Assembly: GCF_964355755.1 (NCBI RefSeq)
Contig: NC_092672.1
Span: 868,001 to 932,000, forward strand
Direction of reading: 5' to 3'
Length of the DNA: 64,000 nt
Source of the DNA: Antedon mediterranea
Taxonomy: Eukaryota > Echinodermata > Crinoidea > Comatulida > Antedonidae
Shown here: piece by piece, positions 22,449 to 48,844 of the stretch
Layout of the letters: the number at the start of each line of letters is the position of its first letter
Position numbering within the stretch: the first letter of the stretch is position 1
The notes under the pieces: model-generated
Databases searched by the model: none
Told to the model about the DNA's origin: nothing
Seen by the model: only the letters and a program-made list of their open reading frames with translations
Translations under genes and position numbers: made by a program

Positions 22449-22511
22449 ATCAAGATTAAGCAACTGAAATTATAACCCACCTGAGTAGATTCTTTTCATT
22501 TGATTGGAATG

Positions 22512-22559: not shown

Positions 22560-22676
22560 ATTGTAATAATAATAATAATAATATTAATAATAATATTCTA
22601 ACTAGCAGTGACCTTAATATGTAGTTTTAAACTAATTCTCATGGGATGAGTAAGTAAAAACTGGTGTAGGCTATTA

Positions 22677-23970: not shown

Positions 23971-24302
23971 TTTATAGAATAAATAAATAAATCGAATAGT
24001 AATTGTGATGGTAAGTTGTTTTTTATTTTGATTTTTTTGCTTTAAGTGGTGAAACCTATTATTTCCACATTTCGAAAATGTTCAATGTAAAATCACCAGA
24101 AGAATTCAAATAAAAAATAGTATCATTAGCAATATGGGATGGAATATATTTAATTCTTTGAATAGAATATATATTTATCAAACAATAGATGTAAAAATAA
24201 ATCATTAAAAACACCTTATTGTAAATATAATTATAATATAAAATTAATTACTAAAATGACAACATATGGAAGGATAACAAAAACAAAATCACAATTTTAT
24301 TA

Positions 24303-24592
24303 ATAAGCGACTTCGATAATTCTAGAGGGCGCCTTTTTAGTCCAGCGCGACGATGTATTATAATCATCGCGCTGGCCTAGAGAGGCCTAGATGGATCGCG
24401 ACGATGTAAATTTATATCATCGCGCTTGCCTAGAGAGGCCTAGATGGATCGCGACGATGTAAATTTATATCATTGCGCTGGCCTAGAGAGGCCTAGATGG
24501 ATCGCGACGATTCATGTAAATTTATATCATCGCGCTGGCCTAGAGAGGCCTAGATGGATCGCGACGACTCATGTAAATTTATATCATCGCAC
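24303..24592. repeat. 53-57-bp tandem repeat with palindromic core, about 4-5 copies
   Basis: Units read GGCCTAGAGAGGCCTAGATG, then GATCGCGACGATGTAAATTT and ATATCATCGCGCT. Each unit can pair CGCGACGAT with ATCATCGCG. The left border (AATAAGCGACTTCGATAA, then TCTAGAGGGCGCC) resembles the ends of the fold-back element at 58887-59085. Unit 2 has fewer copies (39304-39440). Confidence 0.85.
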
Positions 24593-25232
24593 TGGGGTGT
24601 CACGAAACCTAAGACCACGAAAGCTAAGACCCCCTAAGACCTAAGATCACGAAAGCTAAGACCCAAGACCTAAGATTACAAATATTTATCTTTCGCACCT
24701 GCCTTGTATTTTAACTCCCAACATTTATTCTGAATACCACACCTTAGAATTGGCACTTTTATGAAAAAGAATCACATAAAAAGTAACAAATACATTTTTA
24801 AATTGATGATTTTACAGACGTTTTTCTCGCACACAAACTGTTTGCAAATTTCGCATGACTAGCCTACAGTACAGTAGGCCTACCCCTAAGAAAGGCAGGT
24901 GCGTAAGAAAAACATCCTCTGAACCAACACAATGGAGTAAATATATACTAACAAACAACCCGTCAAGTTTGTTTGTTGTAAAGAAAAAAATATACATTTA
25001 CTCAACGGGCGAAAATAATGTGAGTTTATCTATGTTTTGCAGTAGTATTTAATTATATTTATGGTAATAAATGAAACCTACTGTGTTTAAAATTATGTAT
25101 GGATAAACAAGTATTGTTTTTAAGCTGTAATATATCTTAGAATTTGTAATCTTAGGTCTTGGGTCTTAGCTTTCGTGATCTTAGGTCTTAGGGGGTCTTA
25201 GCTTTCGTGGTCTTAGGTTTCGTGACACCCCA
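24593..25232. mobile_element. 640-bp element with about 90-bp terminal inverted repeats
   Basis: Left end TGGGGTGTCACGAAACCTAA and right end its reverse complement. The arms are built of repeated CCTAAGACC and CACGAAAGCTAAGACC words. The interior is AT-rich with no credible gene. It is absent from the matching position of unit 2 (about 39440), so it inserted after the segmental duplication or was lost there. Confidence 0.85.
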
Positions 25233-27330
25233 TCGCTGCGATGATAAGTTAATGCGTCATAGAACCTTTATAAATATAAATCAACTAAATGACATAGTGA
25301 ATGTCCATGGAGGACCGGCCTTTGGGTTAATTTGGGCATAAAGTCCCTTAATTACCGAAGGTGGTGCACAGGGAGATTTATTCTATAGACATATATTATG
25401 AACCCACATGTTCACCCCACGTACTATTTACAATACAGTAGGTCTATTGTAGCCCCAACATAGAGAACCCAAACAATCGACCCTTGGGTTCATTTGGGCA
25501 AATCCATAATATAAATGTTCTTCAAAGATCAAGGGTGCACATTTAGTTTCATTCCATATGGTTAAATCTGTTTACCCCATTCTAATTTCTAATACAGGGC
25601 CTTATGTAGCGGACCACATAGAGATCCCAAAAGGGTCCTTATAGGGTTCATATTTGGGTAAGTCCCTATGGGTTATTATAGAATTCTGTGTGTACAGGAA
25701 ACTTTTTTCTGTATGGGCCAGCCTATTGGGACCAAATGTTTGACCGATTTCGATTACAGAGCCGGTATGACCCATAGAGAACAGAAAAGATCTGATCCTA
25801 TATAAGGATCCCATGTGAGATTATTCGGAAAAACTTTATAGGTTTTTTCATGAAGAGAAGGTATCCTTTCCCCACCCCTACCACTTTGAATTAAAATCCA
25901 TAAATAGGCTCCTTGTACAGTATTTAAAAGGTCAATACACACAAAAGTTATTTTTCAAACATTATAATCCATTAGAGTGAATGTAAGTATCTATTATTAT
26001 TATAAACAACAATGTTCGCCTAGTATCAACTATTTTTTAAAATTTAGATGAAAGTGTGTCAAATGTTAATACACACAGAATACATGTTCCAGTCATTTTT
26101 TGAAAACATTTTTAATTATGACAAGTATAAACATATACATTGCGAACAATTTGACACCAAAACTGGCTCCCTCTACGACAAATATTTATTATTTATATTA
26201 TCAAAGAAAATTAATTTATTTCAAAGGTCAATAACCCCACTTCTGGTCATTTTCAAGTAAGATCCTCTTTTAAACTGAATATAAACATATATCTTGGGAA
26301 CAATTTGCACCTAGTTTTAATTCTCTCCGACCTGCCGTTACTTAGATATGACGAAGAGAGATCAAAGGTCAAAATTGCTAAAAATGGGGTTTCCGGTCAA
26401 TTTTACATTCTGTTAGAGCTAATATAACCATATACATTGTGAACAATTTGACACCAATATTAACTCAATATGTCTAGTAATTCCAGAGATATAGCATGTT
26501 TGCATGAAAATAGCGGCCATTTTGTTTATGCTAATTACGCAAATTGCTCAATGCAATGCAGTAAAAAAATTCTTCATTCTGATGATATCGAGAATCAAAA
26601 TCCATAAAAAAAAACTATAAAAAACATTGCAAGGTTAAACCCCTTGGCTGACTGGTTCTTGGGAAGCTCTCGCCTCGTACATCCTGGCGTTCTAAATTGC
26701 CATTTATCTGCCAATGCATATGTTGCTGAATGTGAAAGGCTTCGCAGTATCCGTCACCAACAGAGTAGTTAAAAACCTAATTGCAGATGCTGAATACAAA
26801 TATTTTAACAAATAAATGAACCCAACAGACTCATCCGTAGCAGAGAAGTACTTAGCTTAACTAAATAATATTTTGGACCTGGGGGGTTATCGTCTGCCAT
26901 GACGGGATTGGGCCATATAGTAGATATTAATTGTGTTTTATTTTTTCATATTTAGAGAGCATATTTATTTGAATATACATGTTACCACATTACACCCAAA
27001 CAATATATGCCTCCCCGAATAAACTCCTCCTCCTATACATGGAATCCAGGGATGTGATACTACATCCCACCTATCCGGTATAGGAGGGGTGCTTACAATG
27101 GAAAAGGTGTGCTTCTGTTAAACAAACTTCTCCTAAAAGGAAATTTGCATTGGTAGCTATATACTGTATAAAGGGAACTATGGAGACTTTGGACAATCTA
27201 AATTTTTGAAGGTTCTGTGAGAAATTAGCAAAAAGCAAAATTAATATAATAAATAAAATATATTCACCAACAACTAATGCTGCAACTATTTCCTTGATAC
27301 AGCAGTGGATACTCTTTAATGACGTGATAT

Positions 27331-27424
27331 TTTTTTAATTTTTTTTATTTTATTCGGTATATAAAAATATATTACAAAACGACAGTCAAGGACTGAAATG
27401 AAATGTATTACAAATGACAAATGC
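27331..27424 (-). mobile_element. Small insertion with poly-T end
   Basis: About 94 bp present here but absent at the matching site in unit 2 (43757). It is flanked by TGATAT on both sides and starts with a T-rich run, as a reversed A-tailed retroposed fragment would. Confidence 0.6.
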
Positions 27425-28188
27425 TGATATGTGTCCACTGACGACGACACTACCACTGTTTGTGAAGAATGTCACGGCATCAGCACATGCTCAATTTCTA
27501 TCTATAGACAGAGGATGATAACCTGAAAATGAAAGTGAATGGATAAATAGATGGCAAGATTGTAGTTTATTGTTGTCACAGACTACAATGTAAATGAACT
27601 AAGTTTTAGTAGAGACAGTGGTCATATGCATTATAATGCATATGACTATGTTGTCTATTATTATAACTGTTCTGATATTTTGATACTTAAATTAATATGT
27701 ATATTGCAGTTGAAATGTTTTAAACTAAGAAATATAAAAGGCACTGTAAAAAAAAAATCAGGTGGTAGTGGTGTTTATTATCAGTCCGGTTGTATATGTA
27801 TTATGTTACTCTGTATTTTGCTATATTATCTGTGGAAATAAATGTTATTATTATTCGCCAACCAACAAAACGGACTGAATTCTGCTTTCGGGCACGCTCT
27901 CCAGACTGACCCCATATAAAAAATCTACGATCACTGCTTGATCCTTGCCGAAAAGGAGCCGCCCCCCGACCCCACCCTCCCTCCCTGCAAAATTCTAGGC
28001 TTTCGTGTTACATATTCATTCTGTATTTTCACGTGCTAGCTCATTCGTCTAATAACACGTGTACGTATTTAGTACGTCCTTATGCTAAAGGTTAATATGT
28101 AAAATGGAAATAGAAAGGAAATACATCTTGGTTTGTAAATTACGGTATATGAATAGAGTATCCTGATCAGGCGTTTATTGTATGCGTA

Positions 28189-28196
28189 GACGTCAC
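28189..28196 (+). promoter_or_regulatory. CRE-like GACGTCAC upstream of CYP-B1
   Basis: GACGTCAC about 70 bp before the ATG. Related ACGTCA motifs occur at similar positions before CYP-D (44517), CYP-F (TGACGTCA, 56557), CYP-C and CYP-E (ACGTCACATCC). A weaker GAGGTCAC precedes CYP-G (61555). It is a candidate bZIP site, not proven. Confidence 0.4.
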
Positions 28197-28265
28197 GTGC
28201 TCCGTATTGCAAATTCTGACTATCTGTGTCACTTGGTCACATTCATTTCTTGGGGTTACGTCAAT

Positions 28266-30483
28266 ATGAACTTTCTCTTTTCATTTTGTGGAATCAACTT
28301 CCAAACTTGTATTATTGGAATTACAATTTTGTTGTTTCTTTTGTACATTACAAGGGATCTGCGTCGTAACCTGCTGCCAGGACCATGGGGATTCCCGGCC
28401 TTTGTATCATTTTATTCATGGGTAGTCAACCACAAAAGACACTGACACGTTATTCTAAGAAGTACCGTACAGTGTTTTCGGGTTATTTTAGAATCAGACT
28501 AGTGGTTTTCGTCAATGATTTCAAGTCCATGAAGCAGATGTTTGTTAAATCGGGAGACACTTTCAATAATCGTTCGAAACTTCTTGTCGTTGACGAAGCG
28601 TCTCACGGAAAAGGTAACGTATTGACTGTGCTTATCTTTATACAAAACAACAACTAAAAAGTTAAATGATCACCTTTACTATTGGCCTCACATTTTCTTA
28701 GACCACCATATTTTGGAAACTCATGTATTCTACTTTGACTCAAGGCGAGAAGCATACAGTATTCCTTCTTTGACTTGTGTATTTACCCAGCCGAAACAAT
28801 ATAATAATCTCATCATTATGATTACTTTTTAAGGACTAGCAAGTGGCTATTTGCATCTTCAGTTAAAAGAGAAAAGAAGGTTTACCATGAAAATATTTCG
28901 GAGTTTGGGAATAGGTAAATCAGAATTTGAAACTACTATTGTACACGAACTAGAATACCTGAAAAGTAAACTGTTAGAAGTTGCTGACACGTCAGTTGAA
29001 TACGATCCTAAACATATCATCGAGAACGCCGTTTCAAACATCATATGTGGAATAGTTTTTGGAAAACGTTACAAGTACGACGATCCAAAATTCAAACGAT
29101 TTATCAGTTTAATGTACGACAATTTTGAATTATTATCCCAGTCTGCAGTTCTGAACTTTCTACCGGTTTTCAAATTATATTCCTAGGAGCGGTTGGAAAA
29201 CGGTATTGACAAACTTTTATACGATTATGAATGAATTCATTAAAGTTGAATTGAAAGAGCATGCAGAAACCATTGACGTCAACAATCCACGTGACTTCAT
29301 TGATGAGTTTTTAAAAGCAAAATCTGAACTTGAGAGTGCTGGTGAGAATACTGATGCATTTGACGATGAATCGGCCGAACAAGTTGTTGTTGATCTTCTT
29401 TTCGCGGGAAGTGAACAACCGCAACATCTTTAAAATGGGCAATTCTTTACTTAGCTCTCTATCCAGAGATTCAGGCGAAGGTGTATGACGAAATTGAATT
29501 AATGTGCGGACAGACCAATCCTCCAACTTTGAAGGACCGATTGAAACTTGTGTACACTGAGGCCGAAGTGATGATGGAGGTGAGGTGATCCGTATTCGAC
29601 CCGTTGCTCCATTAGGTAAATCATCGTCCAATTATGATCGGCGCATCCATAGGCTACTGTATGTGTCTAAATCTAGTAATAGTAAACAAAACAGTAATGA
29701 CCAATTTCACAATTTATACCGGTGGTTTTAATTCATCATTAATAACAAGGCCACATACATGGCTGCAGTCGAGTGTGAATATTTGAGTTGTGTTTACCGA
29801 CCGACAGACAAAGTGAGCTATAGATTTTCTATGTGTATTGACACTTTTTTACATTAATATTTCCTTGCACAGGTGTGCCACATGCTGTTCTGCACGATAC
29901 GTACTACGAGGGGCATTTTATACCAAAAGGTACAACCGTTATACAAAATATTTGGGCAGTGATGCATGACCAAACCACTTGGCAGGAACCAGACAAATTT
30001 AAACCAGAAAGATTTATCGATGAAAAATGTAATCTCATTAAAAGTGAGGAGTTAATTCCATTTTCTATTGGTAGGTATTGAACATAAAGATTACCAAGGC
30101 CTAATGATACATGATAAAATTGATAATCAAACATTTATATAGAGCCAATTAAACAAAAAAATGATCAAAAATAAACATATGATAATTGATGATATATGAT
30201 ACTGATAATGATACATGATAATAATAATAAAGATTTCTAATCCTTCTCTAACGCACCCAAAAGTACCCAAGACGCTTTTTATACCGCCACATGACGGAGC
30301 TTACTCAATCCAATTTCCAATCTAAATGTTTTCGATGCCGTAAATTAGTGTAAAGTGTATCAATTATTATTTAAATTTTATATTATTCTGTCTTTTGCAT
30401 TTTTATTTCCTAATAGGTCGTCGTGCCTGTCCAGGGGAACAATTAGCAGGCAAGGAACTATATTTGTTTTTCTCACATTTAGT
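28266..30483 (+). pseudogene. CYP-B1: broken CYP2-clan P450 pseudogene
   Basis: Exon remains: 28266-28613, 28834-29615, 29873-30070 and the first 67 nt of exon 4 at 30417-30483. Exon 1 has lost one base near 28390, in the proline hinge. Exon 2 is 8 nt too long: an extra base near 29175 leads to a stop, a base is lost near 29415 in the I-helix region (AGTETT becomes AGSEQ with a stop), and about 8 extra bases lie near 29565-29590. Exon 3 is open. Exon 4 keeps GRRACPGEQLAG and then runs directly into exon 2 sequence of another copy (CYP-B2). Upstream and intron sequence match CYP-D. The gene is certainly non-functional as a full P450. Confidence 0.92.
29747..29825. repeat. Dispersed repeat in CYP-B1 intron 2
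   Basis: AACAAGGCCACATACATGGC through GTGTTTACCGACCGACAGAC and AGTGAGCTATAGA. A diverged copy occurs at 55679-55785, downstream of CYP-E. It is a probable SINE or other dispersed repeat; class not determined. Confidence 0.6.
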
Positions 30484-33400
30484 GAAAATATTTCGGAGTT
30501 TGGGAATAGGTAAATCAGAATTTAAAACTACTATTGTACACGAACTAGAATACCTGAAAAGTAAACTGATAGAAGTAGCTTATACGTCAGTTGCATACGA
30601 CCCTAAACATATCATTGAAAACGCCGTTTCAAACATCACATGTGGAATCGTCTTTGGAAAACGTTACAAGTACGACGATCCAAAATTCAAACGATTTCTC
30701 AGTTTAATGTACGAAAATTTTGAATTATTATCCCAGTCTGCAGTTATGAACTTTCTACCGGTTTTCAAATATATTCCTAGGAGCGGTTGGAAAACGGTAT
30801 TGACAAACTTTTATACGACTAGATGGTACGCTCGCTTCGCTCGCGTACCATCTAGGTCGTGCCCACAGATGGTTCTCGAATACACAGTAATTTCAGCGTT
30901 AAAAAACTGGCGATTTCAAATGTACAATAATGCAGGACAATAATATATGTCGTTTACAGGAACGATTAAATAGACACTGTGATTTATGTACTCAACTAAA
31001 ATTAGCACACTGGGAATTACTTCCGAAAGAGAAAGTTGTCACAAAATGAGACCAATTGTTTAAGTCAAATTTAAACAAACTTAATTTGTGTTTTGTATGT
31101 AACATTATGGTTGAGAGATGGGGAAGAGGATGGGTGCAAAGAGGAACAATTTTAAAATATATTCTTTATTTTGTAACGAAATATTAATTAACATGTTTTA
31201 CAAATAATATACCACTAAACACAGTAAAACATTGCGATGTAATACTTTGTTGAAACTATCACCGTTGTAGTCGATTGAAATAGTACAGTACATACACTAC
31301 GACGTATGTTTATATATAATGTTAAACAATTTGTGAAAACCACCTCTATTCGGGGCAAATCATAAATTCGATTTAATCGGTAATAAATATTAAATTACGG
31401 CGACTGAAAACGCTAGCTCATTATCCGTTTAAAAAAAAATTATATCCAACCTCTGCAGCACAGATTGAAAAAAAAAATGGATCGAATTTCTGTTATGAGT
31501 ATACAGTACTTTCCTTTACGACGCCTGAGGGAATAGAGACTTGTGGAACGACACAGAGATTGGACTGTTCCATTCATCGCAAATCAATACATTTGTATAA
31601 ACGTATATTAAATCTATCAAAATAGTATTTTTTTAAGAAAATCGGCCTGTCTTCAACATTATGATGCTGTACTCGAGCTGTTCAATCGGTTTTCAGCTAT
31701 TAAAAACAATTATCGTAGGAGGAGATAGGAAAATGCGAAGCATCCTCGCATTATTGTCTGTGGGTATTTTTCAAGTTGGATATCCATTAGACAGTGCATA
31801 CCACGACCACGAAACACCCCTATTTGGGGCAAATCGTTGAACCTAAATTCGTTTTAATCGTCAATAACTAATTATCTAACTCAATTTAATTAGTAAACAT
31901 AGTTACATCAGATGGTTAAAATCAGTACCGAAAGTACGAACCAACATTATATACCATCGAGTAAAAATTATAGAAATAAACCGCGATTTATCGAATTTTG
32001 CCCTTACGTAAATTTATATATAGATTATGAATGAATTTATTAAAGTTGAATTGAAAGAGCATACAGAAACCATTGACGTCCACAATCCACGTGATTTCAT
32101 CGATGAGTTTTTAAAAGCAAAATCTGAACTGGAAAACGCTGGTGAGAATACTGATGCATTTGACGATGAATCGGCCGAACAAGTTGTTGTTGATCTTTTT
32201 TTCGCAGGAACTGAAACAACCGCAACATCTTTAAAATGGGCAATTCTGTACTTAGCTCTCTATCCAGAGATTCAGGCGAAGGTGATGTCAGTATGTGGAC
32301 AGACCGACCCTCTAACATATAAAGACCGACCGAAACTTGTTTACACTGAGGCAGTGATGATGGAAGTGACCCGTATCCGACCCGTTACTCAATTAGGTAA
32401 ATCATCGTCTGATTATCTGCGCATCCATAGGCTATACTGTAATGTTTCTGAGTCTAGTAATAGTAAAAAAAAAATAACATGACCAATTGGACAATTTATA
32501 TACCTGTTATTTTCATTCATCGTTCATAAAAAATATAAAGTCTAGAAATTAATTACAGCCTAGTCTTAAATTATCGTTTTGAAATACTATTATTTTTAAT
32601 GTGTATTGACATTTTTTACATTAATGTTTCCAACAGGTGTACCGCATGCTGTTCTGCACGATACGTACTACGAGGGGCATTTTATACCAAAAGGTACAAC
32701 CGTTATACAAAATATTTGGGCAGTGATGCATGACCAAACCACTTGGCAAGAACCAGACAAATTTAAACCAGAAAGATTTATCGATGAAAAATGTAATCTC
32801 ATTAAAAGTGAGGAGTTAATTCCATTTTCTATTGGTAGGTATTCAACATCAAGTTTATCAAAAGTAGGCCTAATGGTACATGATACATGATAAAGATGTA
32901 TTGTCTCCCTGTAAAATAATGTTTACAATTTTTGTTGTTGAATATACCATTTTAATGTTACGTAACTATCCACTTTGACAAAAAATTTGATCTAAACAAA
33001 ACTTATTTACCTGAAAAAACTGTAATTTAAAGCAAAACAAAATGGCCAAATTGGCTGCCAGCCAATGGATTGGTTGAATTTAACCATTTATTATGTTATT
33101 TTATAAATATAAACATTATTTTTTTGTTTTTTTTTCTATGGAAGTGATTAACTTTATTAAAACTACAAAAATAACCTACTAACGTCTGATTTAATAACCT
33201 GATCTAATAATTCATTTTAGAGGACAATAGATCTTTAATAATCAAACATTCATATAGCGCCAATTAAAAAAATGATAAAAAAAAGATGTTAATCAAAAAT
33301 GATAATTCATGATGATACATGACACTAATAATGATACATGATAATAATAAAGATGTCTAATCTAAAATTACCCAAGGCGATTTTAATAGCTCCACATGAC

Positions 33401-33650
33401 GAAGCTTACTCAATCCAATTCCAATCTAATTTAACAGTGTATCAATCATTATTTAAATTGTATATTATTCTGTCTTTTGCATTTTTATTTCCTAATAGGT
33501 CGCCGTGCCTGTCCAGGGGAGCAATTAGCCCGCATGGAAATGTATCTGTTTTTCACACATTTAATTTATCAGTTCAAGTTTGAATTACCTCCAAACAAGC
33601 CGAAACCAACAACAAAACCACATGTTGGATTAACGTTATCTGATAACTGA
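30484..33650 (+). pseudogene. CYP-B2: 5'-truncated P450 pseudogene split by a Helitron-like insert
   Basis: Begins in the middle of exon 2 (KIFRSLGIGKSEF), fused to the start of CYP-B1 exon 4. Exon 2 continues to 30818, is interrupted by a 1206-bp insert (30819-32024), and resumes 32025-32396 with AGTETT and EVTR intact and a 12-nt in-frame deletion near 32284. Exon 3 (32637-32834) is open. Exon 4 (33499-33650) has the haem loop GRRACPGEQLA but ends early because a small deletion near 33640 changes the last residues and gives TGA. Exon 1 is missing. Intron 3 and the 3' flank match CYP-D rather than B1. Confidence 0.92.
30819..32024 (-). mobile_element. Helitron-like element, copy 3, inserted in CYP-B2 exon 2
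   Basis: On the minus strand it begins TCTATATATAAATTTACG and ends ATCTAG, with a 7-bp stem hairpin (GGTACGC...GCGTACC) just before the end. The empty site is known from the other P450 genes (TATACGATTATGAATG). Removing the insert rejoins A and T with no target duplication, as Helitron insertion predicts. The interior is the reverse complement of 22677-23970 and has no gene. Confidence 0.8.
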
Positions 33651-35480
33651 TAATCACCAACAGAAATTAAATTTTAATAATTGATAATCAGCAAAATATG
33701 ATCATTTAGGTTACAGTTGAAAAATTGTTATACTTTATAAGTACACTATACACTATACGATATAGTATACTATACACTATACGATATAGTGATAATAAAG
33801 TTATCGGTTATGTTCTATAACATATATATCAGGATGTAGTATATCAGGATGTAGTAAATTAGTTCTTTACATTTATATATTTCTCCGTCATGTGAATTTA
33901 CTAGACTCAACAATAATGTACTTAATTTTCCATAGATGAAATCTAGGTCAAGAGAAATGACGACATCTATAAACAAAGTGGACATTGGTTGTCTCCATTA
34001 AAATGTCTTTGGTCACTGATGTCGATACCAACTCTATCCCGAAATTCCCTCAATCAAAATAATACAGGTGCAAATGAATCGATGGTCGTCTCCAATGAAC
34101 TGTCTTTCGTCTGCGTAAAATGGTTCGATACCAGCTCTATTATTCCTAATCAAAATAGGCCTAATATAGGAAGATGGAAACCATCGCATCTTTGTACGCA
34201 TTTGTGATTATAGATACAAATACAATTTTATTCAACTACTTTATTTGAACATTTTTATTTCCGTTTAATCAATTTGTATTAAAATATCAACTTTTCAATC
34301 TAGAGATCATGCTAAAGTTGTTTGCAAAATTGAGAGAGTAGACCACCAGTGCATTAAATTTCCTAAAACATTGTTTCGCATTGTCAGTTTTAAGTAACTA
34401 GTTCTTAATATATGTTTCAATAACTTGTTAGGAGTTCGAAACAAGAGCTTGTATACTTTTTGACTATAACTATTATTGTTGTAACGCTTATTATAAAACA
34501 CGTTTTTTATCACTTCTCTCCAACAAAAAATGTGAGTACTTTGACGTTCATTTACACACGCTCAAAGTTTGCAAGTCGGATTGTTTTACACATACTGGAG
34601 TTGACTAACACTAGGGGACTTGTTGTTGCCCGAATACCATCACGTGTGTTGTTGATGACTTGATAGCTATTCGGGTAATAGTTTTATATGGGTATTATAA
34701 GTTTATATATATACTGCGTTTGTACTTCGATAACCAAAGAATAAGGGGACACGATATTGATAATTAATGTGATACCCAGACAAACATCTTTTTTTTGTTG
34801 TAATGTCAACATATGTTCATACCCTATATGTACATACCCTCTCATGGAGTTAAATAAACTTTTGTACTTTGTAGCTCAATATCACACCCCTTGAACATTA
34901 TCATTGTTTCTCCAACTCGAGTTGATAAACCCGGATCGAGGACTCGAGTTCGGCGCCCTGGTGTGTTTTGACTTCTCTAAAATTTAACTCGGTGTTTGGA
35001 TGTGATAGAGTAAAAAGGTAATAGTACGAATTGCTTTGAAACAGCATAGCGCTCCGATTATGGGACGCAGAGTAGAACAGTTAGGTTCTATACTGCATTT
35101 CGACTTAATATTTTTTAAACAATTTTGGCACACATAGCGTTTCATAGGTATAATCTTGAGCTCGAAATACAATTTATTTGTTATTTTTAGGGATCTTACG
35201 ACACAAATATTTCTACTTCTAATTTGATTCATAAATTCTTTTTCATTTCTGTTTAAAGACTTTCTTTTTTTAAATATGTTGAAGAATTAATATATATCGC
35301 CAATAAATATCATAGTTTATGATACGAAATCAACCAATCAAATTTCACGGATACACTCAGAGAAGTGTTATATAAAACACATACGTCACATCCTCCGCAT
35401 TGCTAAGTTGTTGATTGTTGACTTCATTCACTGTTATCACTTGTTACAGCATTCAGCATTTCTAGGGGGTTACGTCAAAC
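33651..35480. other. Spacer between CYP-B2 and CYP-C
   Basis: No gene seen. Contains two copies of the 24-bp ACTATACGATATAG unit (33735-33792) that is hugely expanded in unit 2, direct repeats of ATATATCAGGATGTAGTA, and the CYP-C promoter region. The segment 33800-35480 matches 49560-51567. Confidence 0.6.
35371..35377 (+). promoter_or_regulatory. TATA box of CYP-C
   Basis: TATAAAA, preceded by CCAATCAAATTTCACGG and followed by ACATACGTCACATCC, 110 bp before the ATG. The block is the same as that before CYP-E (51459-51465) and unlike that before CYP-A. Confidence 0.6.
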
Positions 35481-37617
35481 ATGCAGTTTCATTACGACGA
35501 CTTATTTTCTAGAATCAACTTCCAAACATGTATTATTGGAATTACAATGTTGTTGTTTCTTGTGTATATTACAAGGGATCTACGTCGTAATCTGCTACCG
35601 GGACCATGGGGGGTTCCCGTCCTTGGTATAATGCCGTTTTTGGGAAGCCAACCACAAAAGACACTGATGAGATATTCTCGCAAGTATGGTCCAGTGTTTT
35701 CAGGATATCTTGGCAGCAGACTGGTGGTTTTCGTCAATGATTACAAGACAATTAGGCAAATGTTTGCTAAATCGGGAGATATATTTAATGATCGTTCGAA
35801 ACAACTTCTTTTGATGGACGAAATAGGTCACGGAAAAGGTAACTAATAACAGAGATCATGCTTTAATTGGTATTTTGTTTTTTTAAAGCTGTTTTATGTA
35901 TTTGTTTTGTGATGTTAGTCGCCTTGCTAAAAGCGACATAGATTTTATTAAGCATAAGGTCATGTAATATCAGATTATCATCCTTAAATTTGTTTTGTTT
36001 TTGCCCAAAAACGAACTAATAATCTCATAATTTGTATTTACTTTAGGATTGGTAAATGGGTATTTGCATCTCCAATTAAAAGAAAAAAGAAGATTTCTCA
36101 TAAAAACATTTCGAAGTTTCGGGATGGGTAAATCAACTTTTGAAAATACAATTGTACACGAACTAGAATACCTGAAAAGTAAACTGATAGAAGTAGCTGA
36201 TACGTCAGTTGCCTACGACCCTAAACATATCATTGCAAACGCCGTTTCAAACATCACATGTGGAATAGTTTTCGGAAATCGTTACAAGTACGACGATCCA
36301 AAGTTCAAACGATTTCTAAGGAAAATGGACGCACTTTTTGAAGCGATAAGCCTGTCAACTGGTCTGAACTTTCTACCAATCTTAAGATATATTCCCGTGA
36401 GCGGTTGGAAAACGGCAATAAAAAACATTGATACGATTATGAATGAATTAATTAAAGTTGAATTGAAAGAGCATACAGAAACCATTGACTTCAACAATCC
36501 ACGTGACTTCATCGATGAGTTTTTAAAAGCAAAATCTGAACTTGAAAACGCTGACGAGAATACTGACGCATTTGACAATGAATCGGCCGAACAGATTGTT
36601 CTGGAACTTTTTATCGGTGGAACTGAAACAACCGCATCAACTTTAAAATGGGCAATTCTGTACTTAGCTCTTAATCCTGACATCCAGGCTAAGGTGTATG
36701 ACGAAATTGAATCAGTGTGCGGACAGACCAATCCTCCAACTTTGAAAGACCGACCGAAACTTGTGTACACTGAGGCAGTGATGATGGAAGTGACCCGTAT
36801 CCGACCCGTTGCTCCATTAGGTAAATAATAATCGTTTTGTATTGTACCTGAACATTTATTCTTATTAATTGGGTATCAGTACCACAGTATATTTAAGGTC
36901 AACATTAGATATTTCATATCATGCATGTTTTAATGTAAACGTTGAAATTAATATATAAATACTTTATTGCAATTTATAGAACAAAAATGTGAAATACGAA
37001 TTGAAGTTGAACAATTCAGCAAATTAGGAAAAATTAAGAATAATAATAAGAATAATATAAGTTATAAACATGGGAAATAATAATAATAAATAAATTTACA
37101 CACACTGTTTTATATACAGGTCTCCCCCATGCTGTTCTACACGATACGTACTATGAGGGGCATTTTATACCAAAAGGTACAACCGTTATACAAAATTTAT
37201 GGGCAGTGATGCATGACCAAACCACATGGCATGAACCAGAGAAATTTAAACCAGAACGATTTATTGATGAAAAAAGTAATCTAATCAAAATTGAACAGTT
37301 AATCCCATTCTCAGTTGGTAGGTTATTTCTTTTCAGTACCTAAAATGTGTAAGCCTAGTTTTAGAACTATAATAGAAGAAATCTCTTTTATTAGTCTGCT
37401 GCAGACAAGTATAACTAATATGATTTTTGTTATAGGTCGCCGTTCATGCCCAGGAGAGCAATTAGCACGTATAAATCTGTATTTGTTCTTCACACACTTA
37501 GTTCATCAGTTCAAGTTTGAATTACCTCCAGACAAGCCGAGACCAACAACAGAACCACATGTTGGAGCAACCTTATCTCCCAAGCCATATCAACTGATAA
37601 TCACCAACAGAAATTAA
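35481..37617 (+). CDS. CYP-C: CYP2-clan P450, chimera of CYP-E 5' end and CYP-A body
   Basis: Exons 35481-35838, 36047-36820, 37120-37317 and 37436-37617 total 1512 nt (503 aa plus TAA). The start ATGCAGTTTCAT matches CYP-E's first codons. Motifs: membrane anchor with GITMLLFLVYI, LPGPWGVPVLG, I-helix GGTETT (CYP-A has AGTETT), EVTR, FKPERF and FSVGRRSCPGEQLA (Cys about 448). Upstream DNA and the first about 90 nt of exon 1 match CYP-E. From the proline hinge onward exons and introns match CYP-A almost base for base. It is probably active, since the frame is fully open and all key residues are present. The Ala-to-Gly change in the I-helix oxygen groove could affect activity modestly. Substrate unknown. 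Confidence 0.94.
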
Positions 37618-37681
37618 ATCAAGATTAAGCAACTGAAATTATAACCCACCTGAGTAGATTCTTTTCATTTGATTGGAATGA

Positions 37682-37730
37682 CGTTATCACCCAAGCCATA
37701 TCAACTGATAATCACAAATCAAAATTAGAT
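37682..37730 (+). pseudogene. Duplicated C-terminal fragment of P450 exon 4
   Basis: The same relic as at 22512-22559, with independent substitutions. It lies just after the CYP-C stop codon. Confidence 0.75.
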
Positions 37731-37834
37731 TGTAATAATAATAATAATAATAATAATATTCCAACTAGCAGTGACCTTAATATGTAGTTTTAAACTAATT
37801 CTCATGGGATGAGTAAGTAAAAACTGGTGTATTA

Positions 37835-38974
37835 TCTATATATAAATTTACGTAAGGGTAAAATTCGGTAAATCGCGCGTTATTTTTAGAATGTTTACTC
37901 GATGGTATATATAAAGTTGGTTAGAATCTCGGTAAAACGAATTTTAATTATTTAGGTTCAACGATTTGCCCCAAATAGGTGTATTTTCCGATCGTGGTAT
38001 ACACTGTCTAATAGATGGCCTCTTGAAAAATACCTGTACACAATAATACGAGGATGCTTCGCATTTTCCTATCTCCTCTTACGATAATTGTTTTCAATAG
38101 CTGAAAACCGGTTGAACAGCTCGAGTACAGTATCATAATGTTGAAGACAGGCCGATTTTCTTTAAAAAATACTATTTTGATAGATTTAATATACGTTTAT
38201 ACAAATGTATTGATTTGCGATGAATGAAACATTCAAATCCCTCAGACTCCCAGTTTGTAGGTAAATTTATGAGCCCTTGGTTTAACACAAGTAGTTAAAT
38301 TTGGAGAATAAACTTAAAACTGAGATGCAATACTTTGACAATATTGTAAATACGTATTAACCATTTTTGGTCGCCATTTGAATCGAAATTTTCTTAATGT
38401 GAATGTGGTTACTGTTAGAAATATAAACACATACAAAGAACATTTATTACTGTGATTGTGGGTAGGCTCTACTGCTGGATATATAAACACATAATATACA
38501 AATAAAAACTGTATTACTGACAGCTGCTTCTCAACGTTTGTATTAATTAATAATTATAAAAAAATCTAAACGTCGTAGTGGTGTCTCGTTACATGTACTT
38601 TACTATTTCAATCGACTATAACAGGGACAGTTTTAAAAAAGTATTAAATCGTAAATGTTTACTATGTTTAGTGGTATATTATTGATAGGCCTATAAAACA
38701 TTTAAAACAATATTTCGTTACTGAGTGGATAGAGAATATATTTAAAAATTGTTCTTCCCATCTTCTTCCCCATCCCTCAACTCTAATGTTATATACAAAA
38801 CACAAATTGGGTTTGTTTAAATGAGACTCATTTTTAAGACAAATTTCTCCTTCGGAAAACGACAATGTACTATAGTCCTGCGGTACGTACATTTGAAATC
38901 GCCAGTTTTTTTACGCTGAAATTACTGTGTATTCGAAAACCATCTGTGGACACTACCTAGATGTAGAGATCTAG
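37835..38974 (+). mobile_element. Helitron-like element, copy 2 (about 1.14 kb)
   Basis: TCTATATATAAATTTACG at the start and GATCTAG at the end, between A and T. It was duplicated together with CYP-C, is about 150 bp shorter than copy 1 through internal deletions, and carries no genes. Confidence 0.7.
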
Positions 38975-39739
38975 TTTATAGAATAAATAAATAAATCGAA
39001 TAGTAATTGTGATGGTAAGTTGTTTTTTATTTTGATTTTTTTGCTTTAAGCGGTGAAACCTATTATTTCCACATTTCGAAAATGTTCAATGTAAAAACAC
39101 CAGAAGAATTCAAATAAAAAATAGTATCATTAGCAATATGGAATGGAATATATTTAATTCTTTGAATAGAATATATATTTATCAAACAATAGATGTAAAA
39201 ATAAATCATTAAAAACACCTTATTGTAAATATAATTATAATATAAAATTAATTACTAAAATGACAACATATGGAAGGATAACAAAAACAAAATCACAATT
39301 TTATTAATAAGCGACTTCGATAACTCTAGAGGGCGCCTTTTTAGTCCAGCGCGACGATGTAAATTTATAATCATCGCGCTGGCCTAGAGAGGCCTAGATG
39401 GATCGCGACGACTCATGTAAATTTATATCATCGCGCTGGCCTGCGATGATAAGTTAATGCGTCATAGAACCTTTATAAATATAAATCAACTAAATGACAT
39501 AGTGAATGTCCATGGAGGACCGGCCTTTGGGTTAATTTGGGCATTGAATGTCCCTTAATTACCGAAGGTGGTGCACGGGGAGATTTATTCTATGGACATA
39601 TAATAATATTATGAACCCACATGTTCACCCCACATACTATTTACAATACAGTAGGTCTATTGTAGCCCCAACATAGAGAACCCAAACAATCGACCCTTGG
39701 GTTCATTTGGGCAAATCCATAATATAAATGTTCTTTAAA

Positions 39740-41946
39740 ATGGACCTGAAATGGAATTTCGATTTTCAAGAAATTCACACATGTTATTTAAATGTATCGA
39801 ATTAACACAAACCCATACAAATAAAAACAAAATGTATAGTATTTTGAGTAAAAACGAAATTTTAAGATACCATGGTAAATTAGCGAAAATTACTCACGCC
39901 ATTGCAATATTCTATTTCAACGGCCGTCGGAAGCCTCTATATTCACGACGTCACATACACACGATGATATCGAGAGCGTGTATGCCGCCCGATAGTCAGT
40001 GAATGATCGACGGCCTGGGAAGATACGCGAAGCGTTGACACTAATACTAATTTATTCAATATCTAATGTTGTTGAAATATAGGTCCCTAAAATGTACTTC
40101 GTTTGTTCTAAAACCCGAATTTAGAAGGCCTACCTCCCAAACCTTTACTAGGCCTAGGCCTAGGCCCCCAATCCAGTGCGCGGAGTCGATCCACCACCCA
40201 CATCATGCGGCGAGGCTCCGTTTCATGTGCATCCAAGGCAGGCCCGTAGCCAGGGGGGGTTTTTATGGTTCAGGCGAACCCCCCCTTTACAGCGAACCCC
40301 CCTTAACCAACTGTGAACCCCCATCCCCGACATGCCCAATACCTCACCCTCATCTCCAAAAATCCTCCAAATACGTGCCCCACAGTACAAAAAATTGTTT
40401 GTAAATTGAAAAATTCGTAAACTTGTTCGTGAACCTTCTTCTCTGTATGAGCGTCAACTAGTGATACGTGTCTGTAAATTTCTAAAAGCTGCAAATGAAT
40501 TTCCGATTATTTTAACCTGAAAAATAAATGTTTGGTCCCTGCATGTAACATGATATTGACGCGTCTCATAGCGAGCTGGCGCACGAACGATTCGTACAAA
40601 GGACACCGCCAGACAACTGCGTACCTATAATTGTTTAGATCACTGGCAGTCAGGCAGCATGCATAAAGTATATAGCCTTCCGACCTACATCAGTATTTAT
40701 GTGTGACTATGAAGTATAATGTATCATAGAGGATTATAGTGAATATTAATATTTTACACTATAATATCTATGGTATCAAGTACTGACGGAGTTCACATTA
40801 TGGCATCCGATTATTTTTTTCTAGACCACCAGCCGATACGTACTAAAATGTATCAATATCACCTATTTACATATTTATATTCCTCAACAAATTGCTGTAA
40901 ATAAATATTATAGATAGAGCTAGCAAATAGCATTTGCCTTCACCCAGTGTGCTTTTTTCGGGGCTGCTCCTAGATATACGTTTGCATTGAACTTGAACGC
41001 AAAACAAAATACGGAGTAAATGATCAAACAATCGGCGGTTCCGCACAGAGCACGCGCATCTAACATACGGCAACAAATAGTTATCGTCATTTAAATTATC
41101 GACGTGTTTGAGGAGGAGGAAAAAAGTATGATCTTTTTGCTCATTGGTTATATAGCATGCTGCACGAGAGTGTCTTTTCCGGCCATCTAGGGGTGTCATT
41201 TAACAAAATTCGCTTCGCATCAGGCTGGGTGAGAGGGGGGGGGGGGGGGTTGTCCCAAATATTAAGTGTCCGAACCCCCCCTTGACAGATCCTGGCTACG
41301 GCCCTGCAAGGACCAAAGCGATATCAACAACTTGCTGCGCTCATTGTCAAGCCAAAGTAAAATATGAATAAAATTCGTTTTCGAACTGCCTGATTCGTGA
41401 CAAATAAATTATCATCTCATATTACTAATTTAATTCTGCTAAACTAAAAACTAAAGAAACTAACACATTTTAGCAGTATAAATTACAAACGATACAAAAT
41501 ACACGAACGGAAAATATGGATACGCATCATTGCGCACGGAGCTGTATCCCGGACAACGTTGCCAGGCCAACTTCAGTATTGCCAGAAAAAACCCGTTGAT
41601 TTTAAGATTTTAAATCGTCATTTACTCGATGAATAACCGTTTATACGGTAATAATTTTATCTAAAAAAATTCTAAATACGTTTCTGCAAATTCACAAGCA
41701 TTTTTTAGAAAATACTCCATAGATTTCAAGAGTTATAGCCAAAAAACTGCAAATTGTCCATTGGAGGGATAGGAATATATTCGCAAAGTGACGTCACCCG
41801 CGAATTTTTGATTTTTTATTTTCAAATGGGGCTTTCCCCAAAAGGGCCAATTTATATTTTGTAACAATATACATTCTAGCAACACTTAATAGCCCCCAAA
41901 ACATCATTCTAAAATGAAAAAAATCGAAAATCCATTTCAGGTCCAT
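39740..41946. mobile_element. 2.2-kb TIR element, private to unit 2
   Basis: Left ATGGACCTGAAATGGA, right TCCATTTCAGGTCCAT. The inverted match extends about 26 bp with one mismatch. It is flanked by TTTAAA on both sides (or TTAA if the ends are shifted by one base). The empty site exists in unit 1 at about 25519 (TTCTTCAAAGATC). No transposase is recognised, and it contains a second element (40239-41306). Confidence 0.85.
40239..41306. mobile_element. 1.07-kb TIR element nested in the 39740 element
   Basis: Ends CAGGCCCGTAGCCAGG and CCTGGCTACGGCCCTG, flanked by the 5-bp direct repeat CAAGG. Next to each end there are G/C homopolymer runs and GAACCCCCC motifs. An open frame on the minus strand (41199-40867) shows no recognised domain. 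Confidence 0.8.
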
Positions 41947-44591
41947 TTTAAAGATCAAGGGTGCACATTTAGTTTCATTCCATATGGTTAAATCTGTTTA
42001 CCCCATTTTAATTTTTAATACAGGGCCTTATGTAGCGGACCACATAGAGATCCCAAAAGGGTCCTTAGAGGGTTCATATTTGGGTAAGTCCTTATGGGTT
42101 ATTATAGAATTCTGTGTGTACAGGAAACTTTTTCCTGTATGGGCCAGCCTATTGTGACCAAATGTTTGACCGATTTCGATTACACAGAGCCGGTATGACC
42201 CATAGAGAACAGAAAAGATCTGATCCTATATAAGGATCCCATGTGAGATTATTCGGAAAACTTTATAGGTTTTTTCATGAAGAGAATGTACCCTTTCCCC
42301 ACCCCTACCATATAGGCTCGTTGTACAGTATTTAAAAGGTCAATACTCACAAAAGTTATTTTTCAAACATTATAATCCATTAGAGTGAATATAAGTATCT
42401 ATTATTATTATAAACAACAATGTTCGCCTAGTATCAACTATTTTTTTTATTTAGATGAGAAAAGTGGGTCAAATGTTAATACACACAAAATACATGTTCC
42501 AGTCATTTTTTGAAAACATTTTGCATTATGACATGTATAAACATATACATTGCGAACAATTTGACACCAAAACTGGCTCCCTACGACAAATATTTATTAT
42601 TTATTTATTGATTTATATTATCAAAGAGAATAAATTTATGTCAAAGGTCAATAACCATACTTCCGATCATTTTCAAGCAAGATCTTCTGTTAAACTGAAT
42701 ATAAACATATATCTTGGGAACAATTTGCACCTAGTTTTAATTTTCTCCGACCTGCCGTTACTTAGATATGACGAAGAGAGGTCAAAGGTCAAAATTGCTA
42801 AAAATGGGGGTTTCCTGTCAATTTTACATTCTGTTATAACCATATACATTGTGAACAATTTGACACCAAAATTAACTCAATATGTCTAGTAAATCCAGAG
42901 ATATAGCATGTTTGCATGAAAATAGCGGCCATTTTGTTTATGCTAATTACGCAAATTGCTCAATGCAATGCAGTCAAAAAATTCTTCATTCTGATGATAT
43001 CTAGAAGCAAAATCCATAAAAAAAAAACTATAAAAAACATTGCAAGGTTAAACCCCTTGGCTGACTGGTTCTTGGGAAACTCTCGCCTCCAACCGTACAT
43101 CCTGGCGTTCTAAATTGGTAACTAGTCACCATTTATCTGCCAATGCATATGTTGCTGAATGTGAAAGGCTTCGCAGTATCCGTCACCAACAGAGTAGCTA
43201 AAAACCTAATTGCAGATGCTGAATACAAATAGTTTAACAAATAAAAGAACCCAACAGACTCATCCGTAGCAGAGAAGTACTTAGCTTAATTAAATAATAT
43301 TTTGGACCTGGGGGTTATCGTCTGCCATGACGGGATTGGGCCATATAGTAGATATTAATTGTGTTTTATTTTTTCATATTATTTAGAGAGCATATTTATT
43401 TGAATATACATGTTACCACATTACAACCAAACAATATATGCCTTCACGAATAAACTCCTCCTATACATGGAATCCAGGGATGTGATACTACATCCCACCT
43501 ATCCGGTATAGGAAAAGGGGTGCTTACAATGGAAAAGGTGTGCTTCTGTTAAACCAAACTTCTCTTAAAAGGAAATTTGCATTGGTAGCTATATACTGTA
43601 TAAAGGGAACTATGAAGACTTTGGACAACCTAAATTATTGAAGGTTCTGTGAGAAATTAGCAAAAAGCAAAATTAATATAATAAATAAAATATATTCACC
43701 AACAACTAATGCTGCAACTATTTCCATGATACAGCAGTGGATACTCTTAATGACGTGATATGTGTCCACTGACGACGACACTACCACTGTTTGTGAAGAA
43801 TGTCACGGCATCAGCACATGCTCAATTTCTATCTATAGACAGAGGATGATAACCTGAAAATGAAAGTGAATGGATAAATAGATGGCAAGATTGTAGTTTA
43901 TTGTTGTCACAGACTACAATGTAAATGAACTAAGTTTTAGTAGAGACAGTGGTCATATGCATTATAATGCATATGACTATGTTGTCTATTATTATAACCG
44001 TTGTGATATTTTGATACTTAAATTAATATGTATATTGCAGTTGAAATGTTTGAAACTAAGAAATATAAAAGGCACTGTAAAAACAGCTATCAAGTGGTAG
44101 TGGTGTTTATTATCAGTCCGGTTGTATATTTATTATGTTACTCTGTATTTTGCTATATTATCTGTGGAAATAAATGTTATTACTATTCGCAACCAACAAA
44201 ACGGACTGAATTCTGCTTTCGGGCACGCTCTCCAGACTGACCCCATATAAAAAATCTACGATCACTGCTTGATCCTTGTCGAAAAGGAGCCCTTCTCCCC
44301 CTCCCTGCAAAATTCTAGGCTTCCGTGTTACATATTCATTCTGTATTTTGACGTGCTAGCTCATTCGTCTAATAACTCTATTACACGTGTACGTATTTTG
44401 TATGTCCTTATGCTAAAGGTTAATATGTAAAATGGAAATAGGAAGGAAATACATCTTGGTTTGTAAATTACGGTATATGAATAGAGTATCCTGATCAGGC
44501 GTTTATTGTTTGCGTAGACGTCACGTGCTCCGTATTGCAAATTCTGACTATCTGTCACTTGGTCACATTCATTTCTTGGGGTTACGTCAAT

Positions 44592-47268
44592 ATGAACTTT
44601 CTCGATTTATTTTGTGGAATAAACTTCCAAACTAGTATTATTGGAATTACAATGTTGCTGTTTCTTTTGTACATTACAAGGGATCTGCGTCGTAACCTGC
44701 TGCCAGGACCATGGGGACTTCCTGGCCTTAGTATAATTTTATTCATGGGAAGCCAACCACAAAAGACACTGACACGATATTCTAAGAAGTATGGGCCAGT
44801 GTTTTCGGATTATTTTGGAAGCAGACTGGTGGTTTTCGTCAATGATTTCAAGTCCATGAAGCAGATGTTTGTTAAATCGGGAGACACTTTCAATGATCGT
44901 TCGAAACTGCTTATCGTTGACGAAGCGTCTTACGGAAAACGTAACGTATTGACTTATATTGCTTATCTTTCTACAAAACAACATCTAAAAAGATAATGAT
45001 CACCTTTACTATTGGCCTCACATTTTCTTAGACCACCATATTTTGAAAACTCATGTATTCTACTTTGACTCAAGGCGCGAAGCATACAGTATTCCTTCTT
45101 TGACTTGTGTATTTACCCAGCCGAAACAATATAATAATCTCATCATTATGATTTACTTTTTAAGGACTAGCAAGTGGCTATTTGCATCTTCAGTTAAAAG
45201 GGAAAAGAAGGTTTACGATGAAAATATTTCGGAGTTTGGGAATAGGTAAATCAGAATTTGAAACTACTATTGTACACGAACTAGAATACCTGAAAAGTAA
45301 ACTGATAGAAGTAGCTGATACGTCAGTTGAATACGACCCTAAACATAATTATCATTGAAAACGCCGTTTCAAACATCACATGTGGAATCGTCTTTGGAAA
45401 ACGTTACAAGTACGACGATCCAAAATTCAAACGATTTCTCAGTTTAATGTAGGAAAATTTTGAATTATTATTCCAGTCTGCAGTTATGAACTTTCTACCG
45501 GTTTTCAAATATATTCCTAGGAGCGCTTGGAAAACGGTATTGACAAACCTTTATACGATTATGAATGAATTCATTAAAGTTGAATTGAAAGAGCATACAT
45601 AAACCATTGACGTCAACAATCCACGTGATGTTATCGATGAGTTTTTAAAAGCAAAATCTGAACTGGAAAAACGTTGGTGAGAATACTGATGCATTTGACG
45701 ATGAATCGGCCGAACAAGTTGTTGTTGATCTTTTTTTCGCGGGAACTGAAACAACCGCAACATCTTTAAAATGGGCAATTCTGTACTTAGCTCTCTATCC
45801 AGAGATTCAGGCGAAGGTGTATGAAGAAATAATGTCAGTATGTGGACAGACCGACCCTCCAACATATAAGGACCGACCGAAACTTGTTTACACTGAGGCA
45901 GTGATGATGGAAGTGACCCGTATCCGACCGGCCGTTGCTCCATTAGGTAAATCATCGTCTGATTATCTGCGCATCCATAGGCTATACTGTAATGTTTCTG
46001 AGTCTAGTAATATTTAAAAAAAAATAACATGACCAATTGGACAATTTATATACCTGTTATTTTCATTCATCTTTCATAAAAAATATAAAGTCTAGAAATT
46101 AATTACAGCCTAGTCTTAAATTATCGTTTTGAAATACTAGTATTTTTAATGTGTATTGACATTTTTTACATTAATGTTTCCCACAGGTGTGCCGCATGGT
46201 GTTCTGCACGATACGTACTACGAGGGGCATTTTATACCAAAAGGTACAACCGTTATGATGTAGACAGAGCTTTATACTAAATATTTGGGCAGTGATGCAT
46301 GACCAAACCACTTGGCAAGAACCAGACAAATTTAAACCAGAAAGATTTATCGATGAAAAATGTAATCTCATTAAAAGTGAGGAGTTAATTCCATTTTCTA
46401 TTGGTAGGTATTCAACATCAAGTTTATCAAAAGTAGGCCTAATGGTACATGATACATGATAAAGATGTATTATCTCCCTGTAAAATAATGTTTACAATTG
46501 TTGTTGTTGAATATACCATTTTAATGTTACGTAACTATCCACTTTGACCTAAAAATTGATCTAAACAAAACTTATTTACCTGAAAAAACTGTAATTTAAA
46601 GCAAAACAAAATTGTCAAATTGGCTGCCAGCCAATGGATTGGTTGAATTTAACCATTTATTATGTTATTTTATAAATATAAACATTATTTTTTTGTTTTT
46701 TTTTCTATGGAAGTGATTAACTTTATTAAAACTACAAAAATAACCTACAAACGTCTGATTTAATAACCTGATCTAATAATTCATTTGAGAGGACAATACA
46801 CCTTTAATAATCAAACATTCATATAGCGCCAATTAAAAAAAAATGATAAAAAAAAAAGATGTTAATCAAAAATGATGATTCATGATGATACATGACACTA
46901 ATAATGATACATGATAATAATAAAGATTTCTAATCTTTCACTAACGCACCCAAAATTACCCAAGGCGATTTTAATAGCTCCACATGACGAAGCTTACTCA
47001 ATCCAATTCCAATCTAATTTAACAGTGTATTAATTATTACTTAAATTGTATATTATTCTGTCTTTTGCATTTTTATTTCCCAATAGGTCGCCGTGCCTGT
47101 CCAGGGGAGCAATTAGCCCGCATGGAAATGTATCTGTTTTTCACACATTTAATTTATCAGTTCAAGTTTGAATTACCTCCAAACAAGCCGAAACCAACAA
47201 CAGAACCACATGTTGGATTAACGTTATCGCCCAAACCGTATCAACTGATAATCACCAACAGAAATTAA
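44592..47268 (+). pseudogene. CYP-D: P450 pseudogene
   Basis: Exons 44592-44940, 45165-45946, 46187-46403 and 47087-47268. Exon 1 is open, but its last base is C where the other genes have G before GTAAC, turning a Gly codon into Arg. Exon 2 has a 4-nt insertion near 45350, an in-frame TAG at 45450, a TAA at 45600, a 1-nt insertion near 45670 and a 3-nt insertion near 45930. Exon 3 has a 19-nt insertion near 46256. Exon 4 is open with GRRACPGEQLA and the normal C-terminus. Promoter and intron 1 match CYP-B1; exon 2, intron 3 and 3' flank match CYP-B2. Confidence 0.93.
46256..46274. mobile_element. 19-bp remnant resembling a family II TIR end, in CYP-D exon 3
   Basis: The extra bases contain GTAGACAGAGCTTTA, matching the right terminus of the family II elements (GTGTAGACAGAGCTTTA at 16684 and 17892). 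It looks like an excision scar or a truncated insertion. Confidence 0.5.
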
Positions 47269-47339
47269 ATTTTAATAATTGATAATCAGCAAAATATGAT
47301 CATTTAGGTTACAGTTGAAAAATTGTTATACTTTATAAG

Positions 47340-47946
47340 TATACTATACACTATACGATATATAGTATACTGTACACTATATGATATAGTATACTATACA
47401 CTATACGATATAGTATACTATACACTATACGATATAGTATACTATACACTATACGTTATAGTATATTATACACTATACGATATAGTATACTATACACTAT
47501 ACGATATAGGTATACTATACACTATACGATATAGTATACTATACACTATACGATATAGTATACTATACACTATACGATATAGTATACTATACACTATACG
47601 ATATAGTATACTATACACTATACGATATAGTATACTATACACTATACGATATAGTATACTATACACTATACGATATAGTATACTATACACTATACGATAT
47701 AGTATACTATACACTATACGATATAGGTATACTATACACTATACGATATAGTATACTATACACTATACGATATAGTATACTATACACTATACGATATAGT
47801 ATACTATACACTATACGATATAGTATACTATACACTATACGATATAGTATACTATACACTATACGATATAGTATACTATACACTATACGATATAGTATAC
47901 TATACACTATACGATATAGTATACTATACACTATACGATATAGTAT
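47340..47946. repeat. 24-bp minisatellite array 1, about 25 copies
   Basis: Tandem TATACTATACACTATACGAT plus ATAG. The unit is partly self-complementary (TATACTATA, TATAGTATA). Variants with an extra G near 47509 and 47727 shift the period locally. Confidence 0.96.
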
Positions 47947-47949
47947 ATT

Positions 47950-48844
47950 ATATAACACCTATATAAATTCCTGTCATTTGATTGGACGAATGTGGGTCAC
48001 ATGGCGTGCAATAGTACGCACTATTCAACGATCGTTAAATAGTACTTTTTGAAACATTTTTGTGTACGAAAAAAAAAACGTCTCGCGGATGAAAAAAAAT
48101 CTAGTACACAAATTATCCTATGATATGGCTATGTACTGTGAAATACAACAGCGCCACCTGTCGTCTGGTCTCAGTTTCATTTGTAAACACCACCGCGAGA
48201 TATGCAACAGCAGCAGATATTTGTGTACGATTTGGACATTATGTACTAATTTCATTCAAAAAGGCATTTAAATTAGCTTTAGATCGTTTTTAGGATTTTG
48301 ATTAATTAATGGGGACATCCCTACAAGAAAACCATAATTAGCTTAGATAAGTTCCAATTGTCTGTCGAAGTTTTGCCTTTCAGCCAAGCTAGTACTAGGC
48401 TACTAGCTAGGTCTAGCCTAACCCATGCTAGTATTAGGCTAGGCCTAGCCTAGGCGTTTTAGCCTTGCTAGGCCTAGGATTGTTTGGTCGTTTGTTGACA
48501 TAATTAACACAAAAGTAGGTGTGTTTACGAAATCCATATAAATATAACATTTAATATAACATTATTAAAAACCAAATGTTACTGTTTTTAATCAAATGTG
48601 TGTGAATGAAATGTAGTAAGCTTTGGCTAGGGCTACCTTTTATTTGATTCAAATAACTAGAATTTATTTAGATGTTATATAAAACAAATAATGAATGTTT
48701 TGTATTCATGTAATGGTACAAATAATGGCACTTGGTGAATGATGAAAGGTTATATCAACTCGGCTTTGCCTCGTAGATATAACCTTTCATCATTCACCTC
48801 GTGCCATTATTTGTACCATTGCACTCATAAACATTCATTATTTG
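47950..48844. mobile_element. About 0.9-kb insert between the two 24-bp arrays
   Basis: Unique-looking DNA splitting the array. It contains GTGGGTCACATG (also at 59828, after CYP-F), a cluster of TAGGCCTAG / CTAGCCTAG palindromes (48400-48480) and a hairpin at 48684-48844. In the hairpin, CAAATAATGAATGTTT and AATGGTACAAATAATGGCAC pair with inverted copies around a short loop. It may be a fold-back element that landed in the array; class unknown. Confidence 0.5.

Follow-up and report, generated by a model that had tools for sequence, protein, structure and literature searches.

Unequal crossing-over within exon 1 as the probable origin of a chimeric cytochrome P450 gene

INTRODUCTION

The cytochrome P450 gene called CYP-C here raises the question of how one gene came to carry the upstream DNA of one neighbor, CYP-E, in front of the coding body of another neighbor, CYP-A. 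A first-pass annotation of the locus had proposed that a promoter swap was brought about by recombination in exon 1. The analysis described here covered a window of 64,000 nucleotides (G000:C3:868001-932000) within a 354-Mb assembly of 18 contigs. Ectopic (unequal) crossing-over within a short exon 1 tract provides the best explanation for CYP-C, and we consider this origin very probable.

A TANDEM CLUSTER OF P450 GENES

The + strand of the window carries a cluster of detoxification-type P450 genes of the CYP2 clan, designated CYP-A, CYP-B, CYP-C, CYP-D, CYP-E, CYP-F, and CYP-G, and this cluster contains every match in the assembly above 70% protein identity. Exon mapping and translation showed four exons and an intact coding sequence of 500 to 503 amino acids in A, C, E, F, and G, and frameshifts in B and D, which are pseudogenes. 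The loci that bear on the origin of CYP-C are as follows.

20327-22448, + strand: CYP-A, the proposed 3′-side parent, an intact P450 of 500 amino acids (exon mapping, translation)
20327-20675, 20879-21652, 21952-22149, and 22267-22448, + strand: exons of CYP-A
28263-33670, + strand: CYP-B locus, a pseudogene with frameshifts, extra partial exons, and a transposon copy in exon 2
35481-37617, + strand: CYP-C, a chimeric but intact P450 of 503 amino acids (exon mapping, Pfam PF00067)
35481-35838, 36047-36820, 37120-37317, and 37436-37617, + strand: exons of CYP-C
44589-47268, + strand: CYP-D, a pseudogene and the counterpart of CYP-B in the second duplication unit
51568-54585, + strand: CYP-E, the proposed 5′-side parent, an intact four-exon P450 of 502 amino acids

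The CYP-C protein gives a full-length match to the PF00067 profile (E 3.3e-117, residues 40-498), and it includes an N-terminal anchor and proline hinge (LLFLVYITRDLRRNLLPGPWG) as well as the haem-cysteine motif FSVGRRSCPGE. Its best matches in the PDB are CYP2C5, 2C9, 2R1, and 2A13. These features are those of a microsomal P450 of the CYP2 clan, with the clan being placed from best matches rather than from a tree.

A second in-frame junction between paralogues is present at the CYP-B locus, where a fragment of exon 4 (GRRACPGEQ...SHLVK) runs directly into exon 2 sequence (IFRSLGIGKSEFK...) at 30344-30560. CYP-D does not have this arrangement.

A SINGLE SWITCH POINT IN EXON 1

The earlier proposal held that the upstream DNA, the TATA block, and approximately the first 90 nt of exon 1 in CYP-C are of E type, and that the gene is of A type from the proline hinge onward. 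Both statements proved correct when A, C, and E were aligned. At each diagnostic difference between A and E from 35381 to 35567, CYP-C is E-type, and at each such difference from 35613 to 35860 it is A-type. The order of these sites in exon 1 is 12 consecutive E events followed by 28 A events with no exceptions (p 1.8e-10 under random order), and the only switch falls within a tract that is identical in all three genes. The parts of CYP-C and the matching tracts in its neighbors are listed below.

34233-35567, + strand: E-type part of CYP-C, which spans its 5′ flank, core promoter, and 5′ UTR and ends after 87 nt of coding sequence, 97-100% identical to CYP-E except for short gaps and one insertion in CYP-E
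35568-35612, + strand: proposed crossover interval in CYP-C, a 45-bp stretch shared without mismatch by A, C, and E
35613-37934, + strand: A-type body and 3′ flank of CYP-C, with 1.1% substitutions from CYP-A
20405-20449, + strand: the 45-bp identical tract in CYP-A
51655-51699, + strand: the 45-bp identical tract in CYP-E

The 45-bp tract encodes ITRDLRRNLLPGPWG, which covers the last part of the anchor together with the proline hinge. Its first 41 bp occur at seven places in the window with three or fewer mismatches, and never in shuffled sequences. The first-pass annotation had recognized a shared stretch of about this length and placed it exactly in CYP-C, but its position in CYP-E was off by one and its end in CYP-A was one base too far. 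The motifs it quoted were found where it had placed them.

Sliding-window identity among A, C, and E, which had been suggested as a check, changes sharply in exon 1 from C-E similarity upstream to A-C similarity downstream. Identity between C and E is 0.95-1.00 across most of the 1.3 kb upstream, where the match is broken by a short gapped stretch at approximately 35076-35136 and by a 336-bp insertion in E (51041-51376). Past the switch, this identity is 0.78-0.93 in exon 1 and about 0.4-0.5 in the intron. The values for A and C are mostly 0.3-0.5 upstream and 0.97-1.00 past the switch.

Coding sequence comparisons and trees give a similar picture. Only one base differs between C and E in the coding sequence 5′ of the switch (dS 0). 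Past the switch, trees group A with C with a support of 100/100, and a grouping of C with E is rejected both for the part of exon 1 beyond the switch (p-AU 7e-31) and for coding positions 133-1509 (p-AU 3e-38). The tree built from the 87-nt 5′ coding part of C alone is unsupported because the stretch is too short.

As a point against the proposed crossover, two bases of CYP-C located just past the tract, at 35618 and 35620, are unlike those of both A and E and equal to those of F, and one of them changes Gly to Val. Three more clustered changes in C are found at the start of exon 3. These changes are possibly the result of a short conversion or of mutation linked to the exchange.

CYP-C AT THE JUNCTION OF TWO DIRECT UNITS

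Recombination at the shared tract had been predicted to yield a tandem duplication of 15-16 kb. Two such units can be delimited in the window.

About 20450-35612, + strand: unit 1, comprising the body of CYP-A, CYP-B, and the promoter and 5′ part of exon 1 of CYP-C
About 35613-51699, + strand: unit 2, comprising the body of CYP-C, CYP-D, and the promoter and 5′ part of exon 1 of CYP-E

The spacing from junction to junction bears out this prediction, at 15,163 bp (20450 to 35613) and 16,087 bp (35613 to 51700). The units are collinear along their whole length, differing by substitution at 259 of the 11,240 positions compared (2.3%), and CYP-C sits exactly on the junction between them. Moreover, the parents are located at the outer ends in the order expected, such that A upstream gives the 3′ part and E downstream gives the 5′ part. 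A genome-wide search for a second copy of the CYP-C junction found it to occur once, and a search of the 354-Mb assembly for a second copy of the 5′ flank of CYP-A recovered only a 185-bp dispersed repeat.

The same geometry bears on gene conversion, in which CYP-C would once have been a full copy of CYP-A whose 5′ end was later overwritten by CYP-E. Other parts of the cluster may plausibly have undergone exchange without crossover, given that A/C and E are unusually alike in tracts of exon 2; at positions 961-1080 of the coding alignment, A-E identity is 93-97% and that of A-F and A-G is 70-83%. At CYP-C, however, the E-type similarity runs on upstream of the gene, and the B-C intergenic DNA matches that between D and E over the entire unit. 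No A-type upstream DNA was found 5′ of CYP-C, and overwriting does not predict a switch that coincides with the junction of a duplication. Since the E-type similarity extends this far, gene conversion was rejected as the only cause, and we judge this history of CYP-C to be extremely improbable.

An assembly artefact must also be weighed, in which one A-B-E locus would have been assembled twice, from two divergent haplotypes placed end to end and misjoined at the 45-bp tract. A divergence of 1-3% between units, along with several large indels, would also be consistent with alleles of a polymorphic animal, and the region is present in one copy only in the assembly, so that there is no alternative haplotype for comparison. 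Nevertheless, the junction lies in gap-free sequence, with no N in the window, and the assembly resolves the long tandem arrays of the window, which suggests that long reads were used. Overlaps between long reads would not normally be joined on a 45-bp match within an exon that is 87% identical. An error of this kind is therefore considered improbable.

PROPOSED ORIGIN OF CYP-C

Unequal crossing-over is favored because the gene at the junction resembles the downstream parent on its 5′ side and the upstream parent on its 3′ side, with one switch in an identical tract. The ancestral chromosome would have carried the order A-B-E. Exon 1 of E on one copy would have mispaired with exon 1 of A on another copy, and one exchange inside the 45-bp tract would have generated the order A-B-C-D-E. 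In the resulting gene, the upstream DNA, promoter, 5′ UTR, and N-terminal anchor of E would have been fused in frame to the hinge, catalytic domain, introns, and 3′ flank of A. We infer that the exchange was a homologous crossover, either meiotic or between sister chromatids.

Replication-based template switching or microhomology-mediated repair might have made the same duplication and hybrid. The perfect homology is just 45 bp long, and another break in the cluster resembles a microhomology-type event, in that an exon 1 relic upstream of CYP-G is joined at a shared ATG. Yet the CYP-C junction joins homologous exons of one gene family in register, as homologous exchange predicts, and it lies inside one of the longest identities between A and E, whereas template switching needs no such register. 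These processes seem a rather unlikely source of CYP-C.

AGE OF THE EXCHANGE

The event is recent because A and C differ past the switch by a dS of only 0.017, compared to 0.36 for A and E. The corresponding A-C dN is 0.010, and introns of the two genes are 99.0-99.5% identical. Divergence between the units is not uniform, as it would be for a single event without later exchange, but rises from 1.2% near CYP-C to 2.7% in the interior when the transposon is left out (Fisher p 9e-8). Uniformity is not strictly a defining feature of such an event, because conversion, constraint, or allelic differences can break it. A single clean event would thus have to be accompanied by later conversion, by different selection, such as weaker constraint on the B and D pseudogenes, or by old allelic differences between the recombining chromosomes, any of which could account for the pattern. 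When differences between A and C were polarized by the ancestral base in the other paralogues, somewhat more changes were assigned to A, although the numbers are too small to establish a trend.

THE E-TYPE PROMOTER AND ANCHOR OF CYP-C

The E-derived part of CYP-C consists of the promoter, the 5′ UTR, and approximately the first 29 codons, which specify the N-terminal membrane anchor. The earlier description of a promoter swap was correct in placing an E-type promoter before an A-type enzyme, but the exchange was not purely one of promoters because the 5′ UTR and the anchor moved as well. Since the exchanged part ends at the proline hinge, the catalytic domain of CYP-C is unmixed and A-type throughout. 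CYP-C is the enzyme of A with the membrane anchor of E.

Expression of CYP-C would be expected, on the basis of its promoter sequence, to follow that of E rather than that of A. The proximal promoter of A appears to be a diverged relative of that of E rather than an unrelated sequence, and the two have in common CCAATCAAAT and a TATA-like box. One motif within this region is a candidate promoter element and serves as a lead only.

35383-35389, + strand: candidate core-promoter element ACGTCAC in CYP-C (motif only)

The motif occurs at the corresponding position in B (28190), D (44518), E (51471), and F (56558), is absent in A, and is altered in G. Perhaps the exchange restored ACGTCAC, located some 100 bp before the ATG, to an A-type enzyme, after which C would have taken the regulated role while A is drifting, and perhaps the anchor swap also alters the membrane placement of the protein, but this scenario is doubtful.

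RELATION TO KNOWN CHIMERIC P450 GENES

The mechanism is a textbook one, and both it and its outcome have precedents in P450 genes of humans and of a moth. The human CYP11B1/CYP11B2 hybrid is part of a duplication and is flanked by its two parents, both of which are retained. It is a rare disease allele with a known regulatory effect, whereas CYP-C comes from a reference assembly and is known here from its sequence; also, the unit containing CYP-C carries a pseudogene, unlike the human case. The hybrid of glucocorticoid-remediable aldosteronism arises by unequal crossing-over between tandem P450 paralogues, as proposed for CYP-C, and it places one promoter before the coding sequence of the other gene (PMC8750845).

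In Helicoverpa armigera, the chimeric P450 CYP337B3 has been attributed to unequal crossing-over and has formed at least six times independently (PMC6211633). Like CYP-C, it takes its 5′ part from one paralogue and its 3′ part and intron from the other (PMC6211633). However, CYP337B3 replaces both parental genes on its chromosomes, whereas both parents remain around CYP-C, and its switch is well inside the coding sequence, whereas the CYP-C exchange involves promoter and anchor only and leaves the catalytic domain unmixed (PMC6211633).

More generally, tandem P450 clusters undergo birth-and-death turnover by unequal crossing-over and, like this locus, are arrays of intact genes, pseudogenes, and transposons (reviewed in PMC13411725). 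The present cluster is the same in kind and represents a well-preserved single step. The case is recent, and a single contig holds the hybrid, its two parents, and the precise crossover interval. With its catalytic domain unmixed, CYP-C provides a natural test of promoter capture apart from enzyme change.

OTHER REPEATS AND RELICS IN THE WINDOW

An exon 1 relic is located upstream of CYP-G at 61166-61275. The region of the 45-bp tract is nearly perfect in this relic (97.8% to G, E, and C), which then resumes at a shared ATG with the 3′ part of exon 1, some 155 bp farther on; the remainder is only 79-88% alike. Toward the 3′ end of exon 2 in CYP-E (52831-53604), at coding positions 961-1080, E is 93-98% identical to A and C, and F and G are 67-83% identical to E. 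This stretch is likely a conversion tract, judging from these identities.

A dispersed repeat of approximately 1.26 kb, with many copies throughout the genome at 82-91%, is present 3′ of A (22702-23959), 3′ of C (37950-38825), and in inverted orientation inside exon 2 of B (30821-32019). The copies located 3′ of A and of C differ by 5.2%, compared to 1.1-1.4% for their flanks. The 185-bp short repeat, found at 19174-19357 and 14243-14429, is an imperfect inverted repeat that has many near-identical copies in the genome and is MITE-like. Tandem arrays occupy 2687-5040, 8165-8724, and 47308-49559, with units of about 50 bp and of 13 bp, plus a TATACTATA-type array between D and E.
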